This document shows positions 11,791-51,056 of a stretch of DNA of 64,000 bases, one piece after another (the stretch's first letter is position 1; each line of letters opens with the position of its first letter). This DNA comes from Bolinopsis microptera (taxonomy: Eukaryota; Ctenophora; Tentaculata; Lobata; Bolinopsidae). The notes under the pieces were generated by a model. That model was not told the origin of the DNA and did not search any database. It saw only the letters and a program-made list of their open reading frames with translations. Location: positions 22,886,987-22,950,986 of the forward strand of contig NC_087073.1 in the NCBI RefSeq assembly GCF_026151205.1, read 5' to 3'. A program made the translations under genes and the position numbers.

Positions 11791-14700
11791 GGTCTACAGT
11801 GGTGCAGGTCTACAGTGGTGCAGGTCTACAGTGGTACAGGTCTACAGTGGTGCAGGTCTACAGTGGTGCAGGTACAGGTCTACAGTGGTGCAGGTCTACA
11901 GTGGTGCAGGTCTACAGTGGTACAGTTCTACAGTGGTGCAGGTCTACAGTGGTGCAGGTCAACAGTGGTGCAGGTCTACAGTGGTGCAGGTCTACAGTGG
12001 TACAGGTCTACAGTGGTGCAGGTCTACAGTGGTGCAGGTCTACAGTGGTGCAGGTCTACAGTGGTGCAGGTCTACAGTGGTGCAGGTCTACAGTGGTGCA
12101 GGTCTACAGTGGTGCAGGTCTACAGTGGTGCAGGGACAGGTCTACAGTGGTGCAGGTCTACAGTGGTGCAGGTCTACAGTGGTGCAGGGACAGTGGTGCA
12201 GGTCTACAGTGGTGCAGGTCTACAGTGGTGCAGGTCTACAGTGGTACAGGTCTACAGTGGTGCAGGTCTACAGTGGTGCAGGGACAGTGGTGCAGGTCTA
12301 CAGTGGTGCAGGTACAGTATAGGTCTACAGTGGTGCAGGTCTACAGTGGTACAGGTCTACAGTGGTGCAGGTCTACAGTGGTGCAGGTCTACAGTGGTGC
12401 AGGTCTACAGTGGTGCAGGTCTACAGTGGTGCAGGTCTACAGTGGTGCAGGTCTACAGTGGTGCAGGTCTACAGTGGTGCAGGTCTACAGTGGTGCAGGT
12501 CTACAGTGGTGCAGGTCTACAGTGGTGCAGGTCTACAGTGGTGCAGGTCTACAGTGGTGCAGGTCTACAGTGGTGCAGGTCTACAGTGGTGCAGGTCTAC
12601 AGTGGTGCAGGGACAGTGGTGCAGGTATACAGTGGTGCAGGTCTACAGTGGTGCAGGTCTACAGTGGTGCAGGTCTACAGTGGTGCAGGTCTACAGTGGA
12701 GCAGGTCTACAGTGGTGCAGGTCTACAGTGGTGCAGGTCTACAGTGGTGCAGGTCTACAGTGGTGCAGGTCTACAGTGGTGCAGGTCTACAGTGGTGCAG
12801 GTCTACAGTGGTGCAGGTCTACAGTGGTGCAGGTCTACAGTGGTGCAGGTCTACAGTGGTGCAGGTCTACAGTGGTGCAGGTCTACAGTGGTGCAGGTCT
12901 ACAGTGGTGCAGGTCTACAGTGGTGCAGGTCTACAGTGGTGCAGGTCTACAGTGGTGCAGGGACAGTGGTGCAGGTCTACAGTGGTGCAGGTCTACAGTG
13001 GTGCAGGTCTACAGTGGTGCAGGTCTACAGTGGTGCAGGTCTATAGTGGTGCAGGTCTACAGTGGTACAGGTCTACAGTGGTGCAGGTCTACAGTGGTGC
13101 AGGTCTATAGTGGTGCAGGTCTACAGTGGTGCAGGTCTACAGTGGTGCAGGTCTACAGTGGTGCAGGTCTACAGTGGTGCAGGTCTACAGTGGTGCAGGT
13201 CTACAGTGGTGCAGGTCTATAGTGGTGCAGGTCTACAGTGGTGCAGGTCTACAGTGGTGCAGGTCTATAGTGGTGCAGGTCTACAGTGGTGCAGGTCTAC
13301 AGTGGTGCAGGTCTACAGTGGTGCAGGTCTACAGTGGTGCAGGGACAGTGGTGCAGGTCTACAGTGGTGCAGGTCTACAGTGGTACAGGTCTACAGTGGT
13401 GCAGGTCTACAGTGGTGCAGGTCTATAGTGGTGCAGGTCTACAGTGGTGCAGGTCTATAGTGGTGCAGGTCTACAGTGGTGCAGGTCTACAGTGGTACAG
13501 GTCTACAGTGGTGCAGGTCTACAGTGGTGCAGGTCTACAGTGGTGCAGGGACAGTGGTGCAGGTATACAGTGGTGCAGGTCTACAGTGGTGCAGGTCTAC
13601 AGTGGTGCAGGTCTATAGTGGTGCAGGTCTACAGTGGTACAGGTCTACAGTGGTGCAGGTCTACAGTGGTGCAGGTCTACAGTGGTGCAGGGACAGTGGT
13701 GCAGGTATACAGTGGTGCAGGTCTACAGTGGTGCAGGTCTACAGTGGTGCAGGTCTACAGTGGTGCAGGTCTACAGTGGTGCAGGTCTACAGTGGTGCAG
13801 GTCTACAGTGGTGCAGGTCTACAGTGGTGCAGGTCTACAGTGGTGCAGGGACAGTGGTGCAGGGACAGTGGTGCAGGTCTACAGTGGTGCAGGTCTACAG
13901 TGGTGCAGGTCTACAGTGGTGCAGGTCTACAGTGGTGCAGGTCTACAGTGGTACAGGTCTACAGTGGTGCAGGTCTACAGTGGTGCAGGTCTACAGTGGT
14001 ACAGGTCTACAGTGGTGCAGGTCTACAGTGGTGCAGGGACAGTGGTGCAGGTATACAGTGGTGCAGGTCTACAGTGGTGCAGGTCTACAGTGGTGCAGGT
14101 CTACAGTGGTGCAGGTCTACAGTGGTGCAGGTCTACAGTGGTGCAGGTCTACAGTGGTGCAGGTCTACAGTGGTGCAGGTCTACAGTGGTGCAGGTCTAC
14201 AGTGGTGCAGGTCTACAGTGGTGCAGGTCTACAGTGGTACAGGTCTACAGTGGTGCAGGTCTACAGTGGTGCAGGTCTACAGTGGTGCAGGTCTACAGTG
14301 GTGCAGGTCTACAGTGGTGCAGGTCTACAGTGGTGCAGGGACAGTGGTGCAGGTCTACAGTGGTGCAGGTCTACAGTGGTGCAGGTCTACAGTGGTGCAG
14401 GTCTACAGTGGTGCAGGTCTACAGTGGTGCAGGTCTACAGTGGTGCAGGTCTACAGTGGTGCAGGTCTACAGTGGTGCAGGTCTACAGTGGTACAGGTCT
14501 ACAGTGGTGCAGGTCTACAGTGGTGCAGGTCTACAGTGGTGCAGGTCTACAGTGGTGCAGGTCTACAGTGGTGCAGGTCTACAGTGGTGCAGGGACAGTG
14601 GTGCAGGTCTACAGTGGTGCAGGTCTACAGTGGTGCAGGTCTACAGTGGTGCAGGTCTACAGTGGTGCAGGTCTACAGTGGTGCAGGTCTACAGTGGTGC

Positions 14701-15765
14701 AGGTCTACAGTGGTGCAGGTCTACAGTGGTGCAGGTCTACAGTGGTACAGGTCTACAGTGGTGCAGGTCTACAGTGGTGCAGGTCTACAGTGGTACAGGT
14801 CTACAGTGGTGCAGGTCTACAGTGGTGCAGGGACAGTGGTGCAGGTATACAGTGGTGCAGGTCTACAGTGGTGCAGGTCTACAGTGGTGCAGGTCTACAG
14901 TGGTGCAGGTCTACAGTGGTGCAGGTCTACAGTGGTGCAGGTCTACAGTGGTGCAGGTCTACAGTGGTGCAGGTCTACAGTGGTGCAGGTCTACAGTGGT
15001 GCAGGTCTACAGTGGTGCAGGTCTACAGTGGTACAGGTCTACAGTGGTGCAGGTCTACAGTGGTGCAGGTCTACAGTGGTGCAGGTCTACAGTGGTGCAG
15101 GTCTACAGTGGTGCAGGTCTACAGTGGTGCAGGGACAGTGGTGCAGGTCTACAGTGGTGCAGGTCTACAGTGGTGCAGGTCTACAGTGGTGCAGGTCTAC
15201 AGTGGTGCAGGTCTACAGTGGTGCAGGTCTACAGTGGTGCAGGTCTACAGTGGTGCAGGTCTACAGTGGTGCAGGTCTACAGTGGTGCAGGTCTACAGTG
15301 GTGCAGGGACAGTGGTGCAGGTCTACAGTGGTGCAGGTCTACAGTGGTACAGGTCTACAGTGGTGCAGGTCTACAGTGGTGCAGGTCTACAGTGGTGCAG
15401 GTCTACAGTGGTGCAGGTCTACAGTGGTGCAGGTCTACAGTGGTGCAGGGACAGTGGTGCAGGTCTACAGTGGTGCAGGTCTACAGTGGTGCAGGTCTAC
15501 AGTGGTGCAGGTCTACAGTGGTGCAGGTCTACAGTGGTGCAGGTCTACAGTGGTGCAGGTCTACAGTGGTGCAGGTCTACAGTGGTGCAGGTCTACAGTG
15601 GTGCAGGTCTACAGTGGTGCAGGTCTACAGTGGTGCAGGTCTACAGTGGTGCAGGTCTACAGTGGTGCAGGTCTACAGTGGTGCAGGTCTACAGTGGTGC
15701 AGGTCTACAGTGGTGCAGGTCTACAGTGGTGCAGGTCTACAGTGGTACAGGTCTACAGTGGTGCA
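11791..15765. repeat. Giant 16-bp minisatellite, about 248 copies
   Basis: The unit is GGTCTACAGTGGTGCA, repeated over nearly 4 kb with very few substitutions (GGTGCA to GGTACA, TCTACA to TCTATA) and a recurrent 14-bp short unit, GGGACAGTGGTGCA. The variant GGTATACAG recurs near 12624, 13561, 13704, 14050 and 14844, suggesting block duplication inside the array. Because 16 is not a multiple of 3, all forward frames stay open and produce artefactual frames of up to 807 codons rich in VYSGAGLQWC; these are not genes. It lies in sema intron 3. Confidence 0.97.
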
Positions 15766-16167
15766 AGTGCAGGGGTACTATACAGGGACAGGGGGCACGG
15801 GGGGCTAACTTTGTTACATACAGTAAATACAGGGTGTACGTCTGGACTCTGGAAACATTTCAAATAGAGTTAACCCCATGTAGCAGCTTGTTCACATAAA
15901 CCAGACTACCAAACCAGTTGTTTACTGACTACTACTACCTTATATGGGCATCACGTGCTAATTATTACATAACACAGTTTGGGGGGACTAATTTGACCAA
16001 AAGTTGTCGAATAAATGGGATTTTCATCATTTTTCGGCTAAATAGAAAAAAAACGAAAAACAAATGTTTCTCATAAAATTTTCATTTAGCTCTACTTACT
16101 AATTAAAGAACGGCAAACACAATGGTTATCTTTATTTTCATCATCACTCAAGTTCACTGTAGTAGTT
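15766..16167. other. Spacer between the 16-bp and 34-bp arrays
   Basis: Contains one direct copy of CCTTATATGGGCATCACGTG at 15938-15957 and otherwise nothing recognised. Confidence 0.6.
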
Positions 16168-28234: not shown

Positions 28235-30965
28235 AATATAGTAAAGTAAAAGTAAAGTAAAATTTATGACATCACATCATCACACATGTCTACAAACTAT
28301 CATCGCACTGTGTGAAAAAATATATAATAAATATTTCCCCACCCACATTAATTAATTATCAAATACAATATTTAAAAACAATTTCATCAAAAACATTATC
28401 CTATTTTAAAAACTTCCCAGTGGAATAAAGATTTATAAAACGCTTCTTTGCCACATAAGGATGGAACCAAAGATAATTGTTATGTTTCTCTTTATTACTG
28501 ACATAACTGGCTCCCTCAATTCTCACTAAAACTTCATTAGAAACATTCCAAAAAAAGCAATCATTTGTGATACTTTTAGAAATCATATCTATCTTATATC
28601 CTTCTAATTTAATTTTAAAACCTAAAACTGTCACAGAGTTCTTGACGTCCGGAGGGAGTTTGTTCCAATATGGAATAACTCGCTCCGGGAGAAAAGACTT
28701 CTGGATATTCTTGACCTTTGTCACACTTTTACTACATCTATTGGATGAAACCAGATTAAGACCTGATCTGCTTGGTCTGAACAAGTCTGTACCATAATCA
28801 GTCATACCATTAATAACCTTAAAAGCTTCAATAAGGTCCCCACGTATTCGCCGCTCTGCCAGCGTTGTCAAATTGAGGATTTCCAGTCTACGGCTGTAAG
28901 GAAGAGTACCCACCTCATCAATCAGACGGGTAAACCGCCTCTGGACGCTCTCCAGCTCCAAAACAGTCCCCCAACTTCCATGAGCCGCAGGTGGATTCCA
29001 CAATTGGACACAATACTCAAGATGAGGTCTTATTAAAGCTTTATATATAGCAATCATAACAGCCTTTTCTCTAATAACTAAATTCCTTACAATCCAACAA
29101 ATCATACGATTTGCCTTAGCGATACATGCTTTGATCTGTTCGTTCCAAAGCAGGGAGCTATGGGTAATAACCCCCAAATCTTTTTCCTGTGCAGATACTT
29201 CAAGTTCTATACCATTTACCTTATAATTTAAATTAGGATTGTTGTTAAAATTAATGTGCACTACTTTGCACTTGGCAGGATTAAATTGTAAAAGCCAAAT
29301 ACTTTCCCAAACTTCTAATTCTTCGATATCTTCAGCAACACTACCGTGGTTAGCTGCATTACCAATTAATTTAAGATCATCAGCAAATAACTTTATGTTA
29401 TTTTTTACAAGGTCAGGCAAATCATTAATATACAGAATGAATAGGAGAGGGCCTAGAACTGACCCCTGAGGAACACCAGATAAAACATGTTTAACCTCGG
29501 ACCATTGTCCTTCTACAGAAACCCTCATAGTCCTGTCTGTCAGAAAATCTTTAATAACATCTAAAACCTTTCCTTTGACACCAAAGCCTTCCAATTTAGA
29601 CAGAAGTCTAAAGTGGGGGACTGTGTCGAATGCCTTACTAAAATCAAAGTATAGAAGATCAACCGGGGCACCTTCATCTAAAATGTCAAGAATGTCATCA
29701 AATGTCTCTAAAAGATTAGATAAACACGATTTACCCTTAACAAATCCATGCTGATGCTTCGAAATTCGATGTTCTAGAAAATGTAATACATGTGCTCTCA
29801 CCAACTTTTCATACACTTTGCACAAAATACAAGTTAATGAAACTGGTCTATAATTTAAGGGGTCTGATTTAATACCCTTTTTAAACAATGCTACAACAGA
29901 TGCAGATTTCCACACTGCAGGTAAAGATCCTGTATCTGAACACTTTTGAAATAATTTAGTCAATGCTTCAACAAAATTGTTGTCATAAGCTAGCGATTTC
30001 AACAACTTCGGATGAACACCATCCGGACCAGAACTCTTAAAAATGTTAAGCTTTAAAAGTTGCTTTTTTATATCAGAACTACTGACTTCCATATCATCAA
30101 TATCATCAATACTCTCATTGTCAGGTCTTAAATTCTCAGTTTTAGGGAGAGGGCCAGGTGGTTCACGCACAAAAACAGAGCTAAAGGCACTTGCGAGTAC
30201 CTCAGCTGACTCAGTCGAACTATCTGTGCGTGTACCATCTCCTCTATCTAAAGAAACCACACTAGATTTAATTTGACGTTTATTTCGTAAATAAGAGTAA
30301 AAAGACTTACAATTCTGCTTCAGATTAGATGTAATTTTCTTTTCATAGCTAACTTTAGCTTTAATCTCTGCTACTTCATAAGTATGTTGTTTGCTACTTG
30401 CATAACTAAAATTAACATCAGATGGATTAATATCAAACTCAGCCCATGCTTTATCTTTATTCTTTCTCATTCGTTTAAGTGCAGATGTACTCCATGGCAA
30501 CTTGACAGGTCTGTTGTCGAGATAAACCGAAGCAGTCGGAACAGCTGCAGCAACAGTCTCCAGTTTACCATGTAATTCAGCCCACATATCTTGAACATCA
30601 TTGGTAGAACTATAATCCCAGTCGATATTTTTCAAACTAAAATTTAATAACTCTTCAGAGGAAATCTTACCCAATATAGGTTTGATAATCTTCTCTTTTA
30701 AACATTTGCTAGTATCCGGCGAAACAACTAGTTCGACAAGTATCCCAACATGATCACTCTTACCAAGCGGAGAAACGATCTTACAACCGTTGACAAGAGC
30801 ATCATTTGTATACAGGACCTGATCAAGAAGACTCTCCTGGAGAGTATCCTTCACAAGCCGTCTTCTAGTTGTCTCGTTGGTGAAATACCAAGTTAAACCA
30901 CTGTCATTGAAAACATCCATGAATTTCTGTTGAGTAACTAAAAACTGGTTCTTGCTAGCAATATT
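28235..30965 (-). mobile_element. 5'-truncated CR1/jockey-like LINE insertion
   Basis: Runs from the last recognisable endonuclease residues (about 30950 on the minus strand) through the reverse transcriptase to a 3' UTR that ends in a short TTTAC-type repeat (about 28238-28262). ORF1 and most of the endonuclease are missing, the usual outcome of incomplete target-primed reverse transcription. The intact reading frame suggests a recent insertion. Confidence 0.75.
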
Positions 30966-31004
30966 ACTATTTATATATATTACTATTAATATACTGAAAA
31001 ACAA
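28401..31004 (-). CDS. LINE endonuclease (C-terminal end)-reverse transcriptase, truncated
   Basis: An 867-codon open frame with no credible start: the first codon is TTG and the first 15 or so residues come from flanking DNA. It begins in the endonuclease end (LDQVLYTNDAL at about residues 60-70, then SDHVGI at 83-88), followed by a reverse transcriptase with YRPVSLTCILCKVYEKLV, YFDFSKAFDTVPH (452-464), GVPQGSVLGPLLFILYINDL and the catalytic FADD (540-543). The C-terminal RRFTRLIDEV and LAERRIRGDLIEAF strings are typical of CR1/jockey-group LINEs. The enzyme would copy LINE RNA into DNA at a nicked target, but without a full endonuclease this copy is probably immobile. No internal stops or frameshifts. 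Confidence 0.88.
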   Translation of the reverse strand: MFFSILIVIYINSNIASKNQFLVTQQKFMDVFNDSGLTWYFTNETTRRRLVKDTLQESLLDQVLYTNDALVNGCKIVSPLGKSDHVGILVELVVSPDTSKCLKEKIIKPILGKISSEELLNFSLKNIDWDYSSTNDVQDMWAELHGKLETVAAAVPTASVYLDNRPVKLPWSTSALKRMRKNKDKAWAEFDINPSDVNFSYASSKQHTYEVAEIKAKVSYEKKITSNLKQNCKSFYSYLRNKRQIKSSVVSLDRGDGTRTDSSTESAEVLASAFSSVFVREPPGPLPKTENLRPDNESIDDIDDMEVSSSDIKKQLLKLNIFKSSGPDGVHPKLLKSLAYDNNFVEALTKLFQKCSDTGSLPAVWKSASVVALFKKGIKSDPLNYRPVSLTCILCKVYEKLVRAHVLHFLEHRISKHQHGFVKGKSCLSNLLETFDDILDILDEGAPVDLLYFDFSKAFDTVPHFRLLSKLEGFGVKGKVLDVIKDFLTDRTMRVSVEGQWSEVKHVLSGVPQGSVLGPLLFILYINDLPDLVKNNIKLFADDLKLIGNAANHGSVAEDIEELEVWESIWLLQFNPAKCKVVHINFNNNPNLNYKVNGIELEVSAQEKDLGVITHSSLLWNEQIKACIAKANRMICWIVRNLVIREKAVMIAIYKALIRPHLEYCVQLWNPPAAHGSWGTVLELESVQRRFTRLIDEVGTLPYSRRLEILNLTTLAERRIRGDLIEAFKVINGMTDYGTDLFRPSRSGLNLVSSNRCSKSVTKVKNIQKSFLPERVIPYWNKLPPDVKNSVTVLGFKIKLEGYKIDMISKSITNDCFFWNVSNEVLVRIEGASYVSNKEKHNNYLWFHPYVAKKRFINLYSTGKFLK

Positions 31005-31838
31005 ATTAGGAATTTACCGCATCCGATTTTCCGCAAACCCCGATTCACTGCAGTCATCTCTTTTCCCCCAAATAGAGCTTAACATGTATAATGTAAAAAA
31101 CAAAACACAAATTTACCCTGAACCCTGATTTACCGCGGATGTTTCCTTCCCCCAACTAGGGTTTAACATACATAATGTATGTTTTAATACTTTCAACACT
31201 ACTATATAACAAATAATTTGAGGATGTACCATGGAAGTCTAGAGTACCCGCAACAAGATATGCAGCTGTAAACGACTTGGTAATGGGGTGCATGTGAGCT
31301 CTGGGGGCCAGTGGCATCAGAAGACTGGCTATCAGCCTTGAAAATAAGATGAGTTCTCTTTAGATCCATGTCACATCTGCACAGTATCTCCATCACCATG
31401 ACACAAACACTCTTACACTCTTCTCACTACCCTGCCCCACCCTAACCCAGCCCCTCCCTCCCTCTACCTGTTGCGGGTACTCTGGACTGCATGGACATCC
31501 TTGAATGGAGGTATTTTATATAGTAGTGTTGTATCTATATTCTATATCAATAATTTGCTATAGACACCCTATCTAGCCCAACCCTTCCCTTAACCCTCCA
31601 CTCCCCTTCCTTTATACATTGTACTCTTATCCCATGCCCAACCTGCTATAGACATATTAAATAACCTCTATTCTTCCCCTTTGGGACACTGCAGTCCACC
31701 CCGCTCCCCTGCCTCTTCCCCTCCCTCCCAGTCACCCAAAACATCACTACAACATACTCACTATACACTCATATATTTAGGTTTTTTGCTTTCGAAAATT
31801 CTCTCTGTTTATTCTTCTTGATCAATCTATCTTTCCCC
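31005..31838. other. Presumed 5' UTR region of the two-ORF LINE plus flank
   Basis: Holds an imperfect inverted repeat: GGATGTACCATGGAAGTCTA at 31222 continuing to CCCGCAACA, and its near-inverse ending at about 31502, about 34 bp per arm, enclosing some 210 bp. A C-rich, CCTCCC-containing stretch (31430-31740) follows. The exact 5' end of the LINE was not determined. Confidence 0.5.
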
Positions 31839-34196
31839 ATGATACCACTCATTCACGTCAAAACTGTGTTACTCTCATCATCTTACTTTCAGGCTGTTGG
31901 TTGGTTCGATGGTGTCCTGGCCCCAATCTCATCATGTGCTCCCTACCATTTTCTCTTCATGCAAGACACAACTATTACTGAAGACAACCCTCGATCTACC
32001 AGATCGAGAAACAATTCCTCTCCTTCTGCTGGAAATGTCATTGACTTCACGAGACCTATTACCATCACAACCCCTGGACGCTACTTGCTTAGCAACCCTG
32101 ACTCTGGCTGTAGTATCAGTCTCTTCCAGGATGTTTTCGCAAGTCAATTGTGTGATCAGTTCTCTTGTGAAATCGAAAACACTGGTGCCCTCAAACAGTA
32201 CACCACAATCCACAAGCAGGCTCAAGTGCATCTCCCACGACTGTCATCATGGTACGGCCCTGTTGACTATGCATTCTCAGGAATCGTGATGAAAGCCAAC
32301 TCCGTGTCAGAATGTCCTCGTCTTGTTGCAGCATATCAGCACATGGTGGAAAATCTCTTTGAACCCAACAACATCGATTGTTCCTCTGACTGCTTTCTGA
32401 TCAACCAGTACAGAACAGGTCGGGATTCTTGCGGAGAACATAGCGATAATGAGCCAGAGGTCGACCTCTCAAAACCTGTTGTTACTCTGTCACTCGGACA
32501 ACAACGCTGTATGCTCATCAGAGAGGCTAAGAACTCTGGAAATGCCATCACAATTAAACTTGACCAAGGTTCAGTTCTTGTTATGCATGGTACTGATTTC
32601 CAGAAAAAGTACACTCACCAAATACCCAAAGACAATGCAATCACTGCTGCACGCACATCAGTGACCTATAGGACCTGCAGCTCCAGCTTCCTGCGTGAAA
32701 GAAACGCCTTATCTACACCTCTTACTGAGATGCCTATCACTCCTGTACTTGCGAACCTGTACTCACGAACTGTACTTGCCCCCAAGTCTACAGCTGAACC
32801 AGTAAGCTCCCCGTCGCTGCACAACAGACGTAGATCTTCTCTGTCACTATCTGGCCTCTCGCAAATCAACAGCATGGACAGCTCCCCAGTTGGATCTCCT
32901 CTGGCATCAAGCTCTCCCTCCGTGACCAGCAGTAAAACTTCAGTGTCTAATAGTGAGACATTCCCTCTCAGTTTGGAAGCCATGTTAGAAGCCATTGACT
33001 CATTGAAAGAAAAAACGGTGAAAAACGAACTTTCTCGTCATGGCAGCTCAAACTCAGGGTCCCTCATTGACTGTAAGAAACGACTCAAGAAAGCTGTGAA
33101 AGCATGCCACAAACGCCTTAGCGTGCTTCTTCTTGAGCCTCCTTCCACCTCAGCTGAGCCTGATTGCGTCACCCATTCCCTCCAAACCATGGAAAACTCT
33201 GTTATTGATCTTCAAGCTAAAATTAGTCTGCAACACACCACCCTGCAAACTCTTGTATTGTGTTCTGACGATAAATCCAGTCAAAAAGGTAGCACCAGCT
33301 CCCCTAATTTGTCCAACGAACTGAACACTGTGGACAAGAGACTCGAGAAGCTTGAAGAAATCATGAGCAGCATCAACTCAAAACAACAAGACACTGCTAC
33401 CTCCCTCAAAGCCTTTGAAGTTAATATCACTGCTATTAAGAGCGAGGTTGAGGACTCTAAGGCCTGCCTGCAGTCTCTCCAGCTCAAAGACCATACAAAT
33501 CCCTCAAACAAAAGGCCCTTGCCCCACTCTGCTCAAAACCAGAACCGTGGAAGGTCAAATGGCACATTCCCTGACTCTCATAGAAAAACCAGAAAACCAA
33601 GAAAAGTTCTCCTCCTTCATGACTCCCAGATGAACGGATTTATAGCAGAGTCTTTCTCCTCTGGGTTTAAGGTTGAAAAAATGAAAGTAGGTTCCTATTC
33701 TGACCTAAACGGAAAACACATGAGAGATGTGATTAAACAACCAGAGGTTGACTGTTACATTCTTCAGCTTGGAGTAAATGATTACAGATATAAAGACCGT
33801 CCTGTAAATAAAGCAGTCGAGGATGCAAAAAAAGCCATTGACACACTCCTCTCTAGCTCCAGTGCTAAGATTGTCGTCTCCCTGCCCACTCCAACTCCTG
33901 GCCCATTAAGTGATTTAACAAAACAATTTGTCTCGGAAATCACCCAATTTGTCTCCACGCAAAGAGAACTAAGTGACTTACACCGGCGCCTCTTCACTGT
34001 AAACAACACTGGAAACTTTTCCCGTGCCATCTCTGCTGCCGGGTCATCCCAAGACTCTCCTAACCCACTGAAGGAAGACCAACTTCATGTCTCAGAGTAT
34101 GGTCTAAAAAAACTTTGTGTTAACATAAAACTTGGCCTTTATCGTGCCTTTGGTATGAGATCCCATAGAATGCAGCCCTCTACTGCAGAGCGCTAG
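31839..34196 (+). CDS. LINE ORF1: AlkB-like dioxygenase, SAP-like, coiled coil, SGNH/esterase-like
   Basis: A 785-residue protein from the first ATG at 31839; an ATG at about 31959 is an alternative. Domains by position: an AlkB-type 2OG-Fe(II) oxygenase (about 32220-32690) with FLINQYRTGRDSCGEHSDNE, iron ligands H-S-D at 32439-32447 and a distal His at 32616 (KKYTHQIP), then R-T-S-V-T-Y-R, where AlkB proteins have the 2-oxoglutarate-binding Arg; a SAP-like helix pair (33003-33107, VKNELSRHGSSNSGSLIDCK); a coiled coil (33320-33490, NTVDKRLEKLEEI); and an SGNH-like domain (33606-34142) with HDS (Ser at 33624), LGVND (33768-33782) and DQLH (34077-34088). Esterase-like domains are known from CR1 ORF1 proteins; AlkB domains reverse alkylation of nucleic acids. 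A role in binding or repairing element RNA is inference. Confidence 0.85.
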   Translation: MIPLIHVKTVLLSSSYFQAVGWFDGVLAPISSCAPYHFLFMQDTTITEDNPRSTRSRNNSSPSAGNVIDFTRPITITTPGRYLLSNPDSGCSISLFQDVFASQLCDQFSCEIENTGALKQYTTIHKQAQVHLPRLSSWYGPVDYAFSGIVMKANSVSECPRLVAAYQHMVENLFEPNNIDCSSDCFLINQYRTGRDSCGEHSDNEPEVDLSKPVVTLSLGQQRCMLIREAKNSGNAITIKLDQGSVLVMHGTDFQKKYTHQIPKDNAITAARTSVTYRTCSSSFLRERNALSTPLTEMPITPVLANLYSRTVLAPKSTAEPVSSPSLHNRRRSSLSLSGLSQINSMDSSPVGSPLASSSPSVTSSKTSVSNSETFPLSLEAMLEAIDSLKEKTVKNELSRHGSSNSGSLIDCKKRLKKAVKACHKRLSVLLLEPPSTSAEPDCVTHSLQTMENSVIDLQAKISLQHTTLQTLVLCSDDKSSQKGSTSSPNLSNELNTVDKRLEKLEEIMSSINSKQQDTATSLKAFEVNITAIKSEVEDSKACLQSLQLKDHTNPSNKRPLPHSAQNQNRGRSNGTFPDSHRKTRKPRKVLLLHDSQMNGFIAESFSSGFKVEKMKVGSYSDLNGKHMRDVIKQPEVDCYILQLGVNDYRYKDRPVNKAVEDAKKAIDTLLSSSSAKIVVSLPTPTPGPLSDLTKQFVSEITQFVSTQRELSDLHRRLFTVNNTGNFSRAISAAGSSQDSPNPLKEDQLHVSEYGLKKLCVNIKLGLYRAFGMRSHRMQPSTAER

Positions 34197-34248
34197 AATA
34201 ACTCTAAAATTCAAAAACAAACAAGCCTCACGAGATCAAGTCGCTGTA

Positions 34249-37200
34249 ATGTCCTGGAACATTCAGGACAGTACAGGAGACGGATCTAACAAATTTGAAA
34301 ATAACGAATTTCTGACAATCCTCAAACAAGCAAACATTCTATGTCTCCAAGAAACTAAGAAGCAGGTTAAAATCGAAGGATACCTTTCCTTTAATAGCAA
34401 CCGCAAAAATTCTCGCTCAGGAGGGGTCTGCATTCTTGCTGAAAATGATTTAAGAAAAGGTGTTTCCTGTGTTCCTTGTAGTGAATCTGAAGATATTATT
34501 GTTGTTAAACTTGACAAAAACTTTTTTAAGCTTGATTTTGATCTATTTTTAGTATGTTATTATATTAGCCCTGCATATTCGTCCTATGTCAAGAAATATC
34601 CAGACTATACTGCTAAGACCTTCTCTGCTCTTGACACCCTCTGTATTAGACTACGTCAAAAAGGAGAAGTTATCATGTGTGGCGATGCAAATGCAAGAAC
34701 TGGAAAACTCCCAGACTATATCCTCTCTTGTAATGCACCTGCCATGCATGACATCTATAATGATATTGGACTTGAACATGACATTGAAGAACCCAGAAAC
34801 AACTCTGACCTGACTATATCTGAACCCCACTGCCAACATTTTCTTGACATGGTTATTAATAACCAACTGAAAATTCTTAATGGGCGTACCCTCGGGGACA
34901 CCACTGGAAAAATGACCTGTCACAAATATAATGGAAGCAGTGTGGTCGATTATTTTGTAATCACCTCGTGGGCAAGAGATCATGTAAACTCTCTTCAAGT
35001 TAAAGAGTTTACATCATACTCTGACCACTGTCCCTTAGTCTTGAAACTCACCACATTCGAACCATTTGTTGCCAACTTCCAGCTCCCAGACTTTTCTAAT
35101 TTACCGTGTGGCTATAAGTGGGACAACAACAACTCCCACTTACTATTTAAAGCAGCCCTCAACTCACCCGAAATTGTCCATAATCTGGAATACATTGTAG
35201 CAAACGAATTTAGCGGCACCTTGGAGGGCAATAATGAACTGAACGATGCAATTACTAACTGTCTCCACAGTGCTGCTGATATAGCATTAAAAGTGAAAAA
35301 ACCTCCTAAAAATTCTGCCCAAAAGAAATGGTTTGATCCACAAGTCAACTCCTCGAGACGCAACCTAAATAGGCTAGCAAACCGGCTAGGTAGTAAACAC
35401 TGCAACAACATTCTCAGACGAGAATATTATAAGCAACGCAATAAGCACAGCAATCTTGTTAACAGTAAGAAATTATCCTTTCTTAGGAAGCTAAATGAAG
35501 CTATTGAAGAGGGTCATATTCTTGACTGGAAAAAATTTAAAAGGCTAAAACAAGAACATGACACTAGTCCCCTACTAGACAAATTCGATCTGGCTAGCTT
35601 TCATGATTTCTTTGCTTCCCTCTATAATAAACCAGACCAGGAACCAGATCTCACTCACCACAATCACAGACATTACCCTGAACCACCAGATCTGGACATC
35701 CTAAACAAGCCCATATCTGATTCTGAACTTACTTCCGCAATCAAAAAGCTCAAAAAGGGTAAAAGTTGCTCAAATGACTTGATCTCAAACGAGATGCTTC
35801 AGAGCCTAACTCCGCTTTGTTTCCAAGTCATCCTCAAAACATTCAACCACTCTCTGGTCTCAGGCTACTATCCATGGCATACCAGTATTATCACTCCTAT
35901 CTATAAATCAGGCAACCCCTTCAGCCCAGACAATTACAGAGCAATAGCAGTTGGCAGTTGTATGGGTAAGCTGTTCTCTAGCATCTTACTTGAACGTCTG
36001 TTACACTTCAAAAAGCTCTACTGTCCTGACCCAAAAGAACAGCTTGGATTTTCGAAAGGTGCCCAAACTAACGATCACGTTTTCACCCTCAAGACAGTAA
36101 TTGACAAATACACAAAAGCTAAAAAGGCTCGTCTTTATGCATGCTTTGTTGATCTAAGAAAGGCCTTTGACACTGTATGTAGGGACCTCCTTCTGCACAA
36201 AATTACATGCCTTGGAATAACCGGTAACTTCTTCAACTGCCTAAGTGATATGTACAAAAACTCTATTGCCCATATAAAAATTTCCAAACTCTTGTCGCCT
36301 AAAATTGATATTGGCAAAGGAACGGAGCAAGGACACCCCCTATCGCCAGACCTCTTTAAAATCTACATTAATGACTTTTCATCTCTCCTGAAATCTGTTG
36401 GTGACTATCCAGTTCTTGCTGACGTTCTGATATCACATCTGCTGTGGGCTGACGATCTTGTCCTTCTTGCTCTAAGTCCCGAGGCCTTGCAAGTCAATAT
36501 CAACATTCTATTTGATTTCTGTAACTCCATGGGCCTTGAAGTAAATATTAAGAAAACTAAGATTGTAATATTCAGCCCTCCCAAACGAAAGCAGTCCTAT
36601 GAAACATTCACATTGGGAGGTCAGCCCATCCAGCACACCGATAAATACTGCTATCTTGGCATAATATTCCACAGAAATGGATCGTTTACAGCAGCAAATA
36701 CTGAGCTGAGGGCCAAGGCTCTCCGTGCTCTCTATGGCCTCAAAGGCAAAATAGTTAAGGATGCCCTCTCACACCGTGCCCTTAATATTCTATTTGACTC
36801 CTTAATAAAACCAATCCTGCTTTATGGCTGTCAAGTCTTATGCCCCCACTCAAAAACCATGAGATACCTTTCAAAAATAGATGACAAAGCCAACCCCCAG
36901 CATACCTTGAAGTACATTGCACAAGACCACTATGAAAAATTCCACCTAAAGTTTATCAAGTGGTCTTTGTCTGTACATTCAAAAGCATCAAATATAGGTT
37001 GCTGGGGCGAAAGCGGGCGCCACCCTCTATTCTTTGAAGCCTGCAAACTTGCAATAGATTACTATAGTCGCCTTGAAAACACTGAAAACGAACTACTCTG
37101 TGCTGCATTTCACGAACAAATCATGTTGGGACTTCCTTGGTATACCAACATCTCAAAGCTTCTCACCAAATACAACTTCACCCCCTCATCTTCCTCAAAA

Positions 37201-37737
37201 TCTAAGCTCTCCACCCAAATCAGTCATAACATGAGGGAAGAATTCGTGAATACCTGGAAAGCTGCCAAGGCCTCCTCGCCAAAACTAGAATTCTATAACT
37301 TAATTAAACATGATTTCGAACCAGAGGCATACCTACGAATTATCAAAATACCGGATGTTCGAAAAAGTCTGACAAGGTTTCGTATCAGCTGCCACAACCT
37401 CTACATCGAAAGGGGCAGATACGAAACCCCCCTTGTACCAAGAGAAGAACGTTGGTGCACCTACTGCTTTTTCCGCAAAGGGCTCAAGCCTATTGAGGAC
37501 GAAAGTCACGTATTGATTGACTGTTTGCTCTACTCCTCAGTTAGGGAAAAATTCAATTTCCATCCCCTAAACATTACTGACCTAGTCGGTTTGCTCTCCA
37601 ACAAAACTCTAGATCCTACCACACTCACTGCCACAGCAAGAGCAATCCATTCAATTCTCTCTGTGAACGAAAATTATACAGCCTACTATAAGAGCCCAGA
37701 TTTCCACTCAAATACTGGCAAGTGCATAATGCTATAG
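34249..37737 (+). CDS. LINE ORF2: endonuclease-reverse transcriptase with zinc knuckle
   Basis: 1162 residues from ATG 34249. An N-terminal endonuclease/exonuclease/phosphatase domain shows SWNIQ (2-6), LQET (33-36), GDANAR (145-150), VVDYFVITS (232-240) and SDH (258-260), the full set of catalytic positions. Reverse transcriptase motifs are ITPIYKSG, NYRAIAVGS, CFVDLRKAFDTV (Asp 635), GTEQGHPLSPDLFKIYIND and LLWADDLVLL (DD 735-736). The C-terminal zinc knuckle is C-x2-C-x13-H-x4-C (C1070, C1073, H1087, C1092). The protein would nick the target and prime reverse transcription. No frameshift or stop is present. The LINE clade cannot be fixed by eye; the 3' tail favours CR1/L2. Confidence 0.92.
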   Translation: MSWNIQDSTGDGSNKFENNEFLTILKQANILCLQETKKQVKIEGYLSFNSNRKNSRSGGVCILAENDLRKGVSCVPCSESEDIIVVKLDKNFFKLDFDLFLVCYYISPAYSSYVKKYPDYTAKTFSALDTLCIRLRQKGEVIMCGDANARTGKLPDYILSCNAPAMHDIYNDIGLEHDIEEPRNNSDLTISEPHCQHFLDMVINNQLKILNGRTLGDTTGKMTCHKYNGSSVVDYFVITSWARDHVNSLQVKEFTSYSDHCPLVLKLTTFEPFVANFQLPDFSNLPCGYKWDNNNSHLLFKAALNSPEIVHNLEYIVANEFSGTLEGNNELNDAITNCLHSAADIALKVKKPPKNSAQKKWFDPQVNSSRRNLNRLANRLGSKHCNNILRREYYKQRNKHSNLVNSKKLSFLRKLNEAIEEGHILDWKKFKRLKQEHDTSPLLDKFDLASFHDFFASLYNKPDQEPDLTHHNHRHYPEPPDLDILNKPISDSELTSAIKKLKKGKSCSNDLISNEMLQSLTPLCFQVILKTFNHSLVSGYYPWHTSIITPIYKSGNPFSPDNYRAIAVGSCMGKLFSSILLERLLHFKKLYCPDPKEQLGFSKGAQTNDHVFTLKTVIDKYTKAKKARLYACFVDLRKAFDTVCRDLLLHKITCLGITGNFFNCLSDMYKNSIAHIKISKLLSPKIDIGKGTEQGHPLSPDLFKIYINDFSSLLKSVGDYPVLADVLISHLLWADDLVLLALSPEALQVNINILFDFCNSMGLEVNIKKTKIVIFSPPKRKQSYETFTLGGQPIQHTDKYCYLGIIFHRNGSFTAANTELRAKALRALYGLKGKIVKDALSHRALNILFDSLIKPILLYGCQVLCPHSKTMRYLSKIDDKANPQHTLKYIAQDHYEKFHLKFIKWSLSVHSKASNIGCWGESGRHPLFFEACKLAIDYYSRLENTENELLCAAFHEQIMLGLPWYTNISKLLTKYNFTPSSSSKSKLSTQISHNMREEFVNTWKAAKASSPKLEFYNLIKHDFEPEAYLRIIKIPDVRKSLTRFRISCHNLYIERGRYETPLVPREERWCTYCFFRKGLKPIEDESHVLIDCLLYSSVREKFNFHPLNITDLVGLLSNKTLDPTTLTATARAIHSILSVNENYTAYYKSPDFHSNTGKCIML

Positions 37738-37910
37738 GACCTTAAAATAAGATTGAACTATACAAACTCAATTTATCTATTTTTCTAAAACTAGCATTAT
37801 ATATAACATTTCTAAATTATCCCTACACACTTGTAAATAATTAGAATTGTGTAACTTAAATTATTTCAGAATTACAACTATTGTGTACTCAATAAAGTAA
37901 TTATCACTTT

Positions 37911-37942
37911 TGTATCCTTGTATCCTTGTATCCTTGTATCCT
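37911..37942. repeat. 8-bp 3' terminal microsatellite of the LINE
   Basis: Four copies of GTATCCTT at the 3' end of the element; used to place its downstream boundary. Confidence 0.8.
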
Positions 37943-38047
37943 AATGTAAACAATCAAAACAACGATTTACCTCAAACCAAGTCTTGAGAGCACCCATGTA
38001 ATTTCCAGTTTAACGGCACTGCTATGTAAGATCAGGGGTTTACTGTG

Positions 38048-49205: not shown

Positions 49206-51023
49206 TGCTTTTCATGCAACAAGTAAAACAAATCCTTTATGTCATGTTTCCAGGGTTTGGACTGGAATTGCCTGCTTAAAGAACCTCCATCGCATTACAT
49301 TACATAATTTTCTGAAACATATATTACATTTACAATAAATTATGCAATATCACAACATTACAATCAACAAAATAAATTTAATCGCAGAATCTCAAATGCA
49401 AATAATCGTAAATTAAACACAAAAAACAAACAACAGAAAACAACTTAAACATGCAATAAATGAATATACGAATGCGCATCTTTTGTCAACTTACTCCTTC
49501 ATAAAATTAATTTTTGACAAAAAAATTTTTTTAGACGGTAAAATAATGGTTACTAATTTATAAGTCACAAATAATAAATCAATACAAATTAATCACAAAT
49601 ACTAGAATAATTAATAGATATTAGGTAACTTATATAACTGAAAAACGATATATGTCGATACAAATTACAAAATAATATTAGGTGATTGAAACATTTCAAT
49701 AAATTCATCATAAATATCACTACCATATTTACCCCAAATATTTAATCTTGATTTATAAAACTTGACAAACTTGTTGCGCAAAGCAGCTAACTTAAATCCT
49801 TGCGCAACCAATTTACCTAAAAGTTCGGTAACACAATTTTTGAAACCCTTAAGTGTCGAATTAATTCTGGCTAATCGTACTAATTGAGAAATAAATATTC
49901 CATAAGACAAATTATTTGGAACGTTTCCATCCAAAAAAGGATAAGATATAACTTTAAAATTATAATCTTTTCTTTTATCATATAACGTCACTCTAAACTT
50001 TCCTTGATAAATACTAATGTTTAAGTCTAGATAGCAACATTTACGAGCCGAAATATTAGTATTATTTACTATCATTTCCTTAGGATAAATATCTTCTAAT
50101 ACATTCTGTAATAAATTGAAATCATTAAAAACTATCAAATCATCTTGATAACGAAAAGTGTCTTTTAATCTTTTTAGATTTTCTGTATCCCCTTGTTCTA
50201 TCAAAAGTTTAATATATTTATATTCGTAAACATGTAAATAAACATTAGCTATTTGTGGTGCTGCATTGGTACCCATTGGTATTCCAATAACTTGTCTATA
50301 AATTTGACCCTGATAAGTAACATAAGAATTATCAATCAAATAATTAAGACATTCCAAAAGTGTATCTTTAGAAAAATGAACTTTATTTTTACTAACATTA
50401 TCAGAGAAATAGGCCTTCTTAGTATAAAGATTAGGAATAATATAAGACTTATCTTTAAAATCAAATACTCTTTCTACAAACATACGAAGATTATCCTTCA
50501 ATTGAATATGAGGAATAGATGTATATAAAGTTGAAAAATCATAAGTACTGACAGACTTTAAACCTTTCTGGGTATTATCATAACTAAGAAAATCTAAGAT
50601 AGGCTCATTATTATCAATAACAAAATAATCATTTCTAACGTGAAATTTATTATCATATATAGATTTATTTTTAGCTGAGTGAAGCATAGATTTAATACAA
50701 ATGCTAAGATAGACTGATAATTGTTGTAAACTACTTCCACTACCAGACGTTATATATCTAACTCCGACTGGCTTTTTATGCTGTTTTGGTGTAATATATA
50801 AATAAGGTAATTTGCTATTATCTTCATCAAATTTAATACGATGTTTAAGTAAGAATGCTTTATGCTCATTAATTATATCATCTTCTGAACGATTAACTTT
50901 AGTAAATGTATTCGATGATAATTCCTTTTCAATCATACTAATATAGAACTTTTTACAAACAATAGTAATATTATTTTTGGCTTTATCGGTAGGAACCAAT
51001 ACAAAATCTTTATGAAGCTCATC
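49206..51023 (-). mobile_element. 5'-truncated Penelope-like retroelement inside a minisatellite
   Basis: The element is flanked on both sides by the same GCTGCACCC repeat. Its 5' end (minus strand) begins at GATGAGCTTCATAAAGATTT (about 51023) and its 3' flank ends at about 49206. The coding frame runs directly out of the repeat, so the N-terminal part of the element was lost at insertion. Confidence 0.7.
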
Positions 51024-51056
51024 TGCACCCTGTAAAGTAGAGTAACTATGCTGCAC
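49665..51056 (-). CDS. Penelope-like reverse transcriptase, N-terminally truncated
   Basis: A 463-codon frame whose first 11 residues are translated minisatellite (a GTG codon, no real start). Reverse transcriptase features in order: DFVLVPTDKAKNNITIVCKK, LPYLYITPKQHKKP, TYDFSTLYTSIPH (171-183), IGIPMGTNAAPQIANVYLH (257-275) and FRYQDDLIVFN (301-311) with the catalytic YxDD. This pattern is that of Penelope-like elements. No GIY-YIG endonuclease follows before the stop, so this belongs to an endonuclease-lacking or N-terminal-endonuclease class, or has lost it. Uninterrupted frame, so recent. It lies antisense in mannosidase intron 7. Confidence 0.8.
   Translation of the reverse strand: MQHSYSTLQGADELHKDFVLVPTDKAKNNITIVCKKFYISMIEKELSSNTFTKVNRSEDDIINEHKAFLLKHRIKFDEDNSKLPYLYITPKQHKKPVGVRYITSGSGSSLQQLSVYLSICIKSMLHSAKNKSIYDNKFHVRNDYFVIDNNEPILDFLSYDNTQKGLKSVSTYDFSTLYTSIPHIQLKDNLRMFVERVFDFKDKSYIIPNLYTKKAYFSDNVSKNKVHFSKDTLLECLNYLIDNSYVTYQGQIYRQVIGIPMGTNAAPQIANVYLHVYEYKYIKLLIEQGDTENLKRLKDTFRYQDDLIVFNDFNLLQNVLEDIYPKEMIVNNTNISARKCCYLDLNISIYQGKFRVTLYDKRKDYNFKVISYPFLDGNVPNNLSYGIFISQLVRLARINSTLKGFKNCVTELLGKLVAQGFKLAALRNKFVKFYKSRLNIWGKYGSDIYDEFIEMFQSPNIIL

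Follow-up and report, generated by a model that had tools for sequence, protein, structure and literature searches.

An AlkB-type dioxygenase domain paired with an SGNH-type hydrolase domain in LINE ORF1 proteins and Helitrons of the ctenophore Bolinopsis microptera

The window LINE and its ORF1 protein

The genome of the ctenophore Bolinopsis microptera contains, on contig NC_087073.1, a long interspersed nuclear element (LINE) whose first open reading frame (ORF), ORF1, encodes an AlkB-type dioxygenase domain and, further along, a putative SGNH-type hydrolase domain. The stretch of DNA analysed, hereafter the window, comprises 64,000 nucleotides (assembly GCF_026151205.1, positions 22,886,987 to 22,950,986 of the forward strand). 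The parts of the element are given below in window positions, together with some ratios of nonsynonymous to synonymous divergence (dN/dS) and with expectation values as E.

31180..37941, + strand: LINE element, about 6.76 kb; 5' end from copy alignments, 3' end from the TTGTATCC tail and the flanking duplication
31173..31179, no strand: candidate target-site duplication TAATGTA, left copy
31839..34196, + strand: ORF1, 785 codons open; likelier start Met42 (31962), giving 744 residues
32115..32681, + strand: AlkB-type 2-oxoglutarate- and Fe(II)-dependent (2OG-Fe(II)) dioxygenase domain, ORF1 residues 93-281
32682..32963, + strand: variable Ser-rich linker, residues 282-375; dN/dS 0.25-0.48 between diverged copies
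32964..33134, + strand: stretch earlier called SAP-like, residues 376-432; no SAP match; dN/dS 0.10-0.34 between diverged copies
33306..33482, + strand: predicted coiled coil, residues 490-548, from a heptad test; dN/dS 0.103-0.108
33603..34133, + strand: SGNH/GDSL-type hydrolase domain, residues 589-765; profile score below cut-off; dN/dS 0.12-0.14
34249..37737, + strand: ORF2, endonuclease and reverse transcriptase (RT), 1162 residues
35911..36666, + strand: RT core of ORF2, RVT_1 E 2.2e-28, residues 555-806
37910..37941, + strand: 3' tail of four TTGTATCC units, read directly
37942..37948, no strand: candidate target-site duplication TAATGTA, right copy

As a first-pass annotation of this DNA had described, ORF1 is uninterrupted over its 785 codons and lies 52 bases upstream of the endonuclease-RT ORF2. 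Besides RVT_1, Pfam gives endonuclease matches in ORF2; its nearest solved structures are R2 (1.4e-28) and LINE-1 ORF2p (2.1e-22), and its RT is 24-26% identical to those of the six other LINE ORF2s compared. The element is classed as a LINE by this endonuclease and RT downstream of ORF1, by its dispersed copies and by the candidate target-site duplication. A 5' start shared by 10 of 14 other copies compared, at 31169-31194, places the beginning of the element near 31180. The 7.1 kb searched contain TAATGTA at three places (31089, 31173 and 37942), two of them at the element ends, against 0.43 occurrences expected with equal base frequencies and more in AT-rich DNA; the duplication was sought at the window copy alone, which gave this one 7-bp candidate.

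The genome searched was the window's own (264.65 Mb, 232 contigs). It holds at least 59 matches to the window ORF1 protein, in pieces and many partial, and 10 of them span at least 722 query residues without a stop. The closest copy, L002 (C1:21678270-21683624), encodes an ORF1 protein 99.7% identical over 778 residues, and the recent activity proposed for the element is supported. The ORF2 of L002 is without the stretch matching window 34608-35818. Copies other than this near-identical one align to ORF1 from residue 2 onward. Because residues 1-41 are weakly constrained (dN/dS 0.32-0.41, with wide intervals, versus 0.14-0.16 for residues 42-92), Met42 at 31962 is the likelier true start.

The first-pass annotation had read four parts into ORF1: an AlkB domain with its fingerprint residues, an SAP-like motif, a coiled coil and an SGNH domain, to be checked with profile searches and structure prediction. 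Profile analysis bears out the first. The Pfam family PF13532 (2OG-FeII_Oxy_2) matches residues 102-278 at E 1.3e-22, over its curated cut-off, and the expected Fe ligands H201, D203 and H260 are present together with Arg272 and Arg278 of the RxxxxxR motif. The best solved-structure matches of ORF1, by sequence in the Protein Data Bank, are ALKBH3 (8.5e-15) and ALKBH2 (7e-8). An AlphaFold2 model of the domain, computed from the window sequence and 62 bacterial and viral AlkBs, is strand-rich and confident, with a predicted local distance difference test score (pLDDT) of 91.5 and a predicted template-modelling score (pTM) of 0.88.

The catalytic residues are conserved well beyond this copy. The H-D-H triad and both Arg are invariant across an alignment of 13 domains with a mean column identity of 33%, drawn from LINEs, Helitrons and three ALKBH-like ORFs not assigned to any element; its invariant columns include H116, D118, H175, R187 and R193 in the numbering of the domain piece. 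The motif is also present in all 30 loci cut out for the PF13532 search, which are the best-scoring of 151 and include many near copies. Another 54 domains were preselected by the catalytic motif and provide no independent evidence for it. A profile built from the 13 domains, biased toward ALKBH2/3 by its three ALKBH-like host ORFs, finds ALKBH3 (4e-43), ALKBH2 (8e-40), AlkB (4e-14) and ALKBH8, and weakly a DNA N6-methyladenine (6mA) demethylase and ALKBH1. ALKBH5 and FTO are absent from the 42 sequences that it matches at E up to 0.001, from the 38 solved-structure sequences matching window ORF1 at E up to 1, and from the 31 matching the AlkB domain of another LINE family, F707, at E up to 1, where ALKBH2 and ALKBH3 lead. 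At the level of sequence, these results establish an ALKBH2/3-like 2OG-Fe(II) dioxygenase with complete catalytic residues, and the window domain is very probably a functional enzyme. At the residue after HxD, which we take to be the equivalent of E. coli AlkB D135, the window family, F646 and F611 have N and F1128 has R; the other transposon families read have D.

Two of the remaining parts also stood. Heptad periodicity at residues 490-550 is matched by none of 2000 shuffles, in keeping with a coiled coil. The SGNH domain is weak by profile: Lipase_GDSL_2 gives E 0.0068 for the whole ORF1 and 7.2e-4 for the isolated piece, and neither score reaches the cut-off. Its catalytic-block residues Ser, Gly, Asn and Asp/His are nonetheless invariant in five sequences from four families, and it resembles the SGNH of F707 at E 3e-5. 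Folded alone, the SGNH piece gave a poor model (pLDDT 53.4) that was not used. SGNH catalytic blocks following a coiled coil are the mark of a Type IV (esterase) ORF1, to which the window ORF1 conforms with a profile score below cut-off. The SAP reading of residues 376-432 is not supported, since no SAP match appears in ORF1 in Pfam at E up to 1.

Selection on the AlkB domain

Substitution patterns were estimated with NG86 by comparing the window copy with L003, L005 and L006. For the AlkB domain, dN/dS is 0.063, 0.050 and 0.047 respectively, with 95% limits together of 0.022-0.133; these values are no higher than those in the first part of ORF2 (0.065-0.081). In the same comparisons the SGNH domain gives 0.116-0.144 and the linkers 0.276-0.569. 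Between diverged copies, constraint on ORF1 is strongest in AlkB, whose dN falls below that of SGNH in 964, 995 and 996 of 1000 bootstrap replicates. A wider set covered 16 copy pairs, in which near-identical pairs are uninformative.

The first-pass annotation had proposed searching for copies with the same domain order and had named, as evidence against itself, copies with AlkB absent or decaying beside an otherwise conserved ORF1. Copies with the same order were found, their AlkB is under strong purifying selection, and the opposite pattern did not appear in the copies examined. The substitution ratios establish that AlkB and ORF1 are kept by purifying selection.

The AlkB-SGNH pair in other LINEs and in Helitrons

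PF13532 has at least 151 matches in the genome (150 of 587 candidates scored). The stretches around six different AlkB matches contain five LINEs and one Helitron. The five LINE ORF1s are 24-28% identical to window ORF1, and each is followed downstream by an RT ORF. All five carry AlkB over the Pfam cut-off, and four show a GDSL match below cut-off; in the fifth, F707, SGNH blocks are recognised by eye, and its SGNH is similar to those of the window family, F592, F586 and F1128. Family F586 (L044) has PHD, AlkB and GDSL matches, with RT 2.5 kb downstream by coordinates. PHD-finger matches, below cut-off, lie in the N-terminal ORF1 of F707 (L063) and F586 (L044) and near the ORF2 start of F592 (L065). 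Two abundant families, F1128 and F1181, were picked by RT alone, with no AlkB listed nearby, and the pair was found in both: F1128 (L297) carries it in an open frame, and in F1181 (L296) the frame is broken and the distal half of AlkB and SGNH are read, while in other F1181 copies the frame at that place stays open for up to 680 residues. Nine LINE families, the window family included, thus have AlkB followed by SGNH, eight with a whole AlkB and one with half.

A survey of RT matches indicates how common this arrangement is. RVT_1 had 6502 candidates, of which 150 matches were scored, and the coordinates of the listed matches were compared. A listed AlkB match lies within 5 kb upstream on the same strand in 26 of the 150; a further 17 have an F1128-like ORF1 within 4 kb upstream (82 rows), and another 15 an F1181-like match covering the AlkB half (141 rows). 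An AlkB ORF1 is therefore found just upstream of at least 58 of the 150 RT matches, a lower bound also since many RT copies may be 5'-truncated. Two more RT matches have a match to the SGNH part alone and stand outside the 58. Wrong-side controls gave 2 (either strand, for the AlkB count), 0 (F1128-like) and 0 (F1181-like).

In the Helitron, loci L062 and L067 together give one 3388-codon frame in which SGNH precedes AlkB, the reverse of the LINE order:

residues 10-177: SGNH, GDSL E 9.4e-6, below cut-off
residues 488-620: AlkB, E 5.3e-21
after AlkB: DUF6570, Helitron_like_N (3.7e-22), then PIF1 helicase (1.9e-22)

Helitron_like_N lies 3.2-3.9 kb downstream on the same strand in 8 of the 150 AlkB matches, and an upstream control gave 0. 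The genome has 41 Helitron_like_N matches in total; 9 belong to those pairs, and AlkB was not seen with most. Among seven Helitron copies, AlkB dN/dS is 0.15-0.26 in 9 of 10 pairs. The Helitron SGNH gives 0.12-0.45 over nine computable pairs (0.45 from 13 codons), the low-complexity linker 0.46-0.78 and the stretch after AlkB 0.29-1.06. The first-pass suggestion that a single element carries its own demethylase is therefore supported but incomplete, as several LINE lineages and some Helitrons do so too.

An arrangement outside these elements was also seen. At L033 with L295 (C5, about 22265392-22271500), an ALKBH3-like ORF of 296 residues has an SGNH ORF 0.7 kb downstream on the same strand, whose product resembles the Helitron SGNH (E 4e-5). 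Judged from its sequence, this locus may be a pair of host genes or a tamed element, or it may hint at where the AlkB-SGNH pair came from.

Maximum-likelihood trees of AlkB were computed from 46 rows and from 37 rows; in the latter, F592 and F586, both long, were removed along with eight further rows, F1128 was added and other long rows stayed, and both trees have long branches. One supported clade unites the Helitron AlkBs with those of the LINE families other than the window's (99/98 on 46 rows, 99/95 on 37 rows); in it, Helitron AlkBs are nearest F707/F586 (88/83, 46 rows) or F707/F1128 (99/84, 37 rows). The AlkB of the window family falls outside this clade. All transposon AlkBs lie on one side of a branch that lacks strong support (85/71; 91/67). 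By the approximately unbiased test (p-AU), a clade of all LINE AlkBs is not rejected on 46 rows (0.072) and is rejected on 37 rows (0.006), while grouping the window AlkB with ALKBH3 and host-like relatives is not rejected on either (one relative, 0.078, 46 rows; two relatives, 0.174, 37 rows). A separate capture of AlkB by the window lineage is thus possible. Twelve phage records hold AlkB genes 26-42% identical to the window AlkB domain, and no viral-contig relative of the ORF1 of the window or of F707 was confirmed.

Families F646 and F611 (loci L061 and L066; C5:18132565-18140500 and C3:20034600-20042500) are instructive about how ORF1 moves. Their ORF2s share 98% DNA identity (dS 0.049), whereas their ORF1s share 72%, with dS about 1.6 where measurable. 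Because the two are near-identical in ORF2 and diverged in ORF1, their sequences give direct evidence that ORF1 was swapped as a block at the ORF1/ORF2 junction.

The window holds further features. Another LINE has left remains at 28401-31004 (- strand), where an RT frame stays open for 867 codons; this RT is 35% identical to that of F592. A 463-codon ORF at 49665-51056 (- strand) presumably encodes a Penelope-type reverse transcriptase, as which it reads. A long tandem array at 11799-15899 has a short repeated peptide open in several frames. As to host genes, a search for COX1 found none, and a glutamate-receptor reading frame resembled animal receptors only in general terms.

Known counterparts and proposed function

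Short 3' repeats are a trait of CR1/L2 elements and are found in the window element as well. Esterase (Type IV) ORF1s of CR1/L2, such as ZfL2-1, likewise combine a coiled coil with an SGNH-type esterase and precede an endonuclease-RT ORF2; unlike the window ORF1, they come with no mention of AlkB in the available text of the two sources (PMC3905857, PMC4120745). Metcalf and Casane found the esterase type in two vertebrate subgroups only, and the ORF1 types laid out in the accessible part of their study include none with AlkB (PMC4120745). The ORF1s of F707 and F586 resemble the PHD-bearing Type III of CR1/L2 in their N-terminal, below cut-off PHD match (PMC4120745) but differ from it in continuing into AlkB and SGNH. 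The AlkB-SGNH ORF1 is filed here as a new ORF1 type of LINE.

The literature searched, with most subscription papers and Repbase outside the search, describes no AlkB in LINEs or Helitrons, and an unremarked Repbase entry may exist. The closest published case found is the AlkB of orchid (Phalaenopsis) Ty3/Gypsy elements, which, like the window LINE, are retroelements carrying their own AlkB-type demethylase; they are of long terminal repeat type, with an ALKBH5-like domain in an additional ORF, in one plant lineage (PMC9289625). Here, by contrast, the carriers are LINEs and Helitrons of an animal, and their ALKBH2/3-like domains are joined to an esterase within ORF1 or within the Helitron protein. 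An AlkB is also said to occur in plant RNA viruses (van den Born, 2008); as here, it is encoded by a parasite that copies RNA, and the host and replication machinery differ. Accessory domains are described in Helitrons, where RPA, OTU or an apurinic/apyrimidinic endonuclease accompanies the Rep-helicase protein (PMC6431247), and texim SGNH genes lie beside fish Helitrons (PMC4021074). The Helitron of the present genome differs in having SGNH and AlkB inside one 3388-codon Rep-helicase frame. Retroelements of bdelloid rotifers have GDSL and DEDDy ORF3s, again an accessory enzyme common to unrelated elements in one genome, with GDSL and an exonuclease as the enzymes and AlkB not mentioned in the available text (PMC5408684).

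LINEs and Helitrons both copy single-stranded nucleic acid, the substrate class of AlkB and ALKBH3, and ALKBH3/ALKBH2-type enzymes repair N1-methyladenosine (m1A) and 3-methylcytidine (m3C). We lean slightly toward the reading that AlkB provides built-in template clearing, demethylating the element's own single-stranded template. The ORF1 protein would be a particle protein with a working AlkB demethylase aboard, oligomerising on the element RNA through its coiled coil and basic linkers. AlkB would strip Watson-Crick-face methyls (m1A, m3C and perhaps 1-methylguanosine, m1G) from the single-stranded template, and the element's RT, or in Helitrons whatever copies the single strand, would then not be stopped by them. 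In laboratory use, AlkB clears methyls that block reverse transcriptase (PMC7968990, PMC8053708). SGNH would act in a lipid or membrane step, as proposed for other LINE esterases, because the ZfL2-1 esterase is described as an acetylesterase that binds lipids and liposomes and not oligo-A RNA (PMC3905857).

The first-pass annotation had also suggested that the domain counters host m1A or N6-methyladenosine (m6A) marking. The m1A side of this idea fits the nearness to ALKBH3 and ALKBH2; the m6A side is weaker, with no ALKBH5 or FTO match. An epitranscriptomic or epigenetic evasion, in which AlkB erases host m6A from element RNA or 6mA from DNA and the element escapes silencing or decay, is unlikely, although the presumed equivalent of D135 varies here and related activities are on record. 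The orchid ALKBH5-like domain demethylates m6A in vitro (PMC9289625), 6mA on young L1s rose along with silencing after Alkbh1 was lost in mouse (PMC4982230), and engineered changes of E. coli AlkB D135 alter specificity, with S, T or R raising m1G activity and I giving m6A activity (PMC7968990). Against evasion, the nearest families are ALKBH3 and ALKBH2, and neither ALKBH5 nor FTO matched at E up to 1; human L1 is reported to benefit from the m6A writer and to be held back by the eraser ALKBH5 (PMC7873242). That the target is host nucleic acid, such as tRNA, rRNA or cut target-site DNA, and not the element's own template is quite improbable. ALKBH-type enzymes act on several RNAs, and the proteins of the element probably come into contact with single strands exposed where it inserts; no sequence feature pointing to a host substrate was seen, however, and the fusion of AlkB within ORF1, not in a separate ORF, would argue for action in the particle.

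A domain that only binds single-stranded nucleic acid, its catalysis dispensable, would supply what the scanned ORF1s otherwise lack, as none shows RRM or CCHC in Pfam (E up to 1 for the window, 0.1 for the others) and another part must bind RNA. Yet five catalytic residues invariant over 13 domains at 33% mean column identity would exceed the needs of binding, which makes this reading highly unlikely. A host ALKBH gene that hitch-hiked once and persists without function is scarcely credible, even though gene capture is known for Helitrons (PMC6431247, PMC4021074): AlkB is retained by several deeply diverged LINE families and by Helitrons, and its dN/dS, far below 1, led us to reject such a functionless chance capture.

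Several observations weigh against template clearing by AlkB. Among the matches listed, the remaining 92 of 150 RT matches have no upstream AlkB. A distant ORF1 relative on contig C32 (40% identity) has 35 stops and is decayed throughout. The AlkB ratio reaches 3.67 in the LINE pair L005/L015 and 0.87 in the Helitron pair L052/L054, on uninformative dS of 0.004 and 0.008 respectively. The AlkBs with N or R after HxD may also differ in substrate preference.

LINEs and Helitrons have unrelated transposition mechanisms and share a single-stranded intermediate. As a tentative extension, which we consider somewhat doubtful, AlkB and SGNH would form a shared mobility kit that moved as a module among LINE lineages and between LINEs and Helitrons, with AlkB repairing or demethylating the copied strand. 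If so, transposons of both Class I and Class II would encode template repair, and the AlkB-SGNH ORF1 would count as a new ORF1 type.

Little is understood about the ORF1 proteins of LINEs. With an ALKBH2/3-like enzyme strongly selected in two unrelated transposon classes of one genome, it becomes directly testable whether mobile elements are limited by damage to their template or by its methylation. If AlkB does clear the element's own template, methylation of RNA or single-stranded DNA would be a real barrier to transposition, and these elements would offer natural demethylases already paired with reverse transcriptases, of possible use in sequencing modified RNA.

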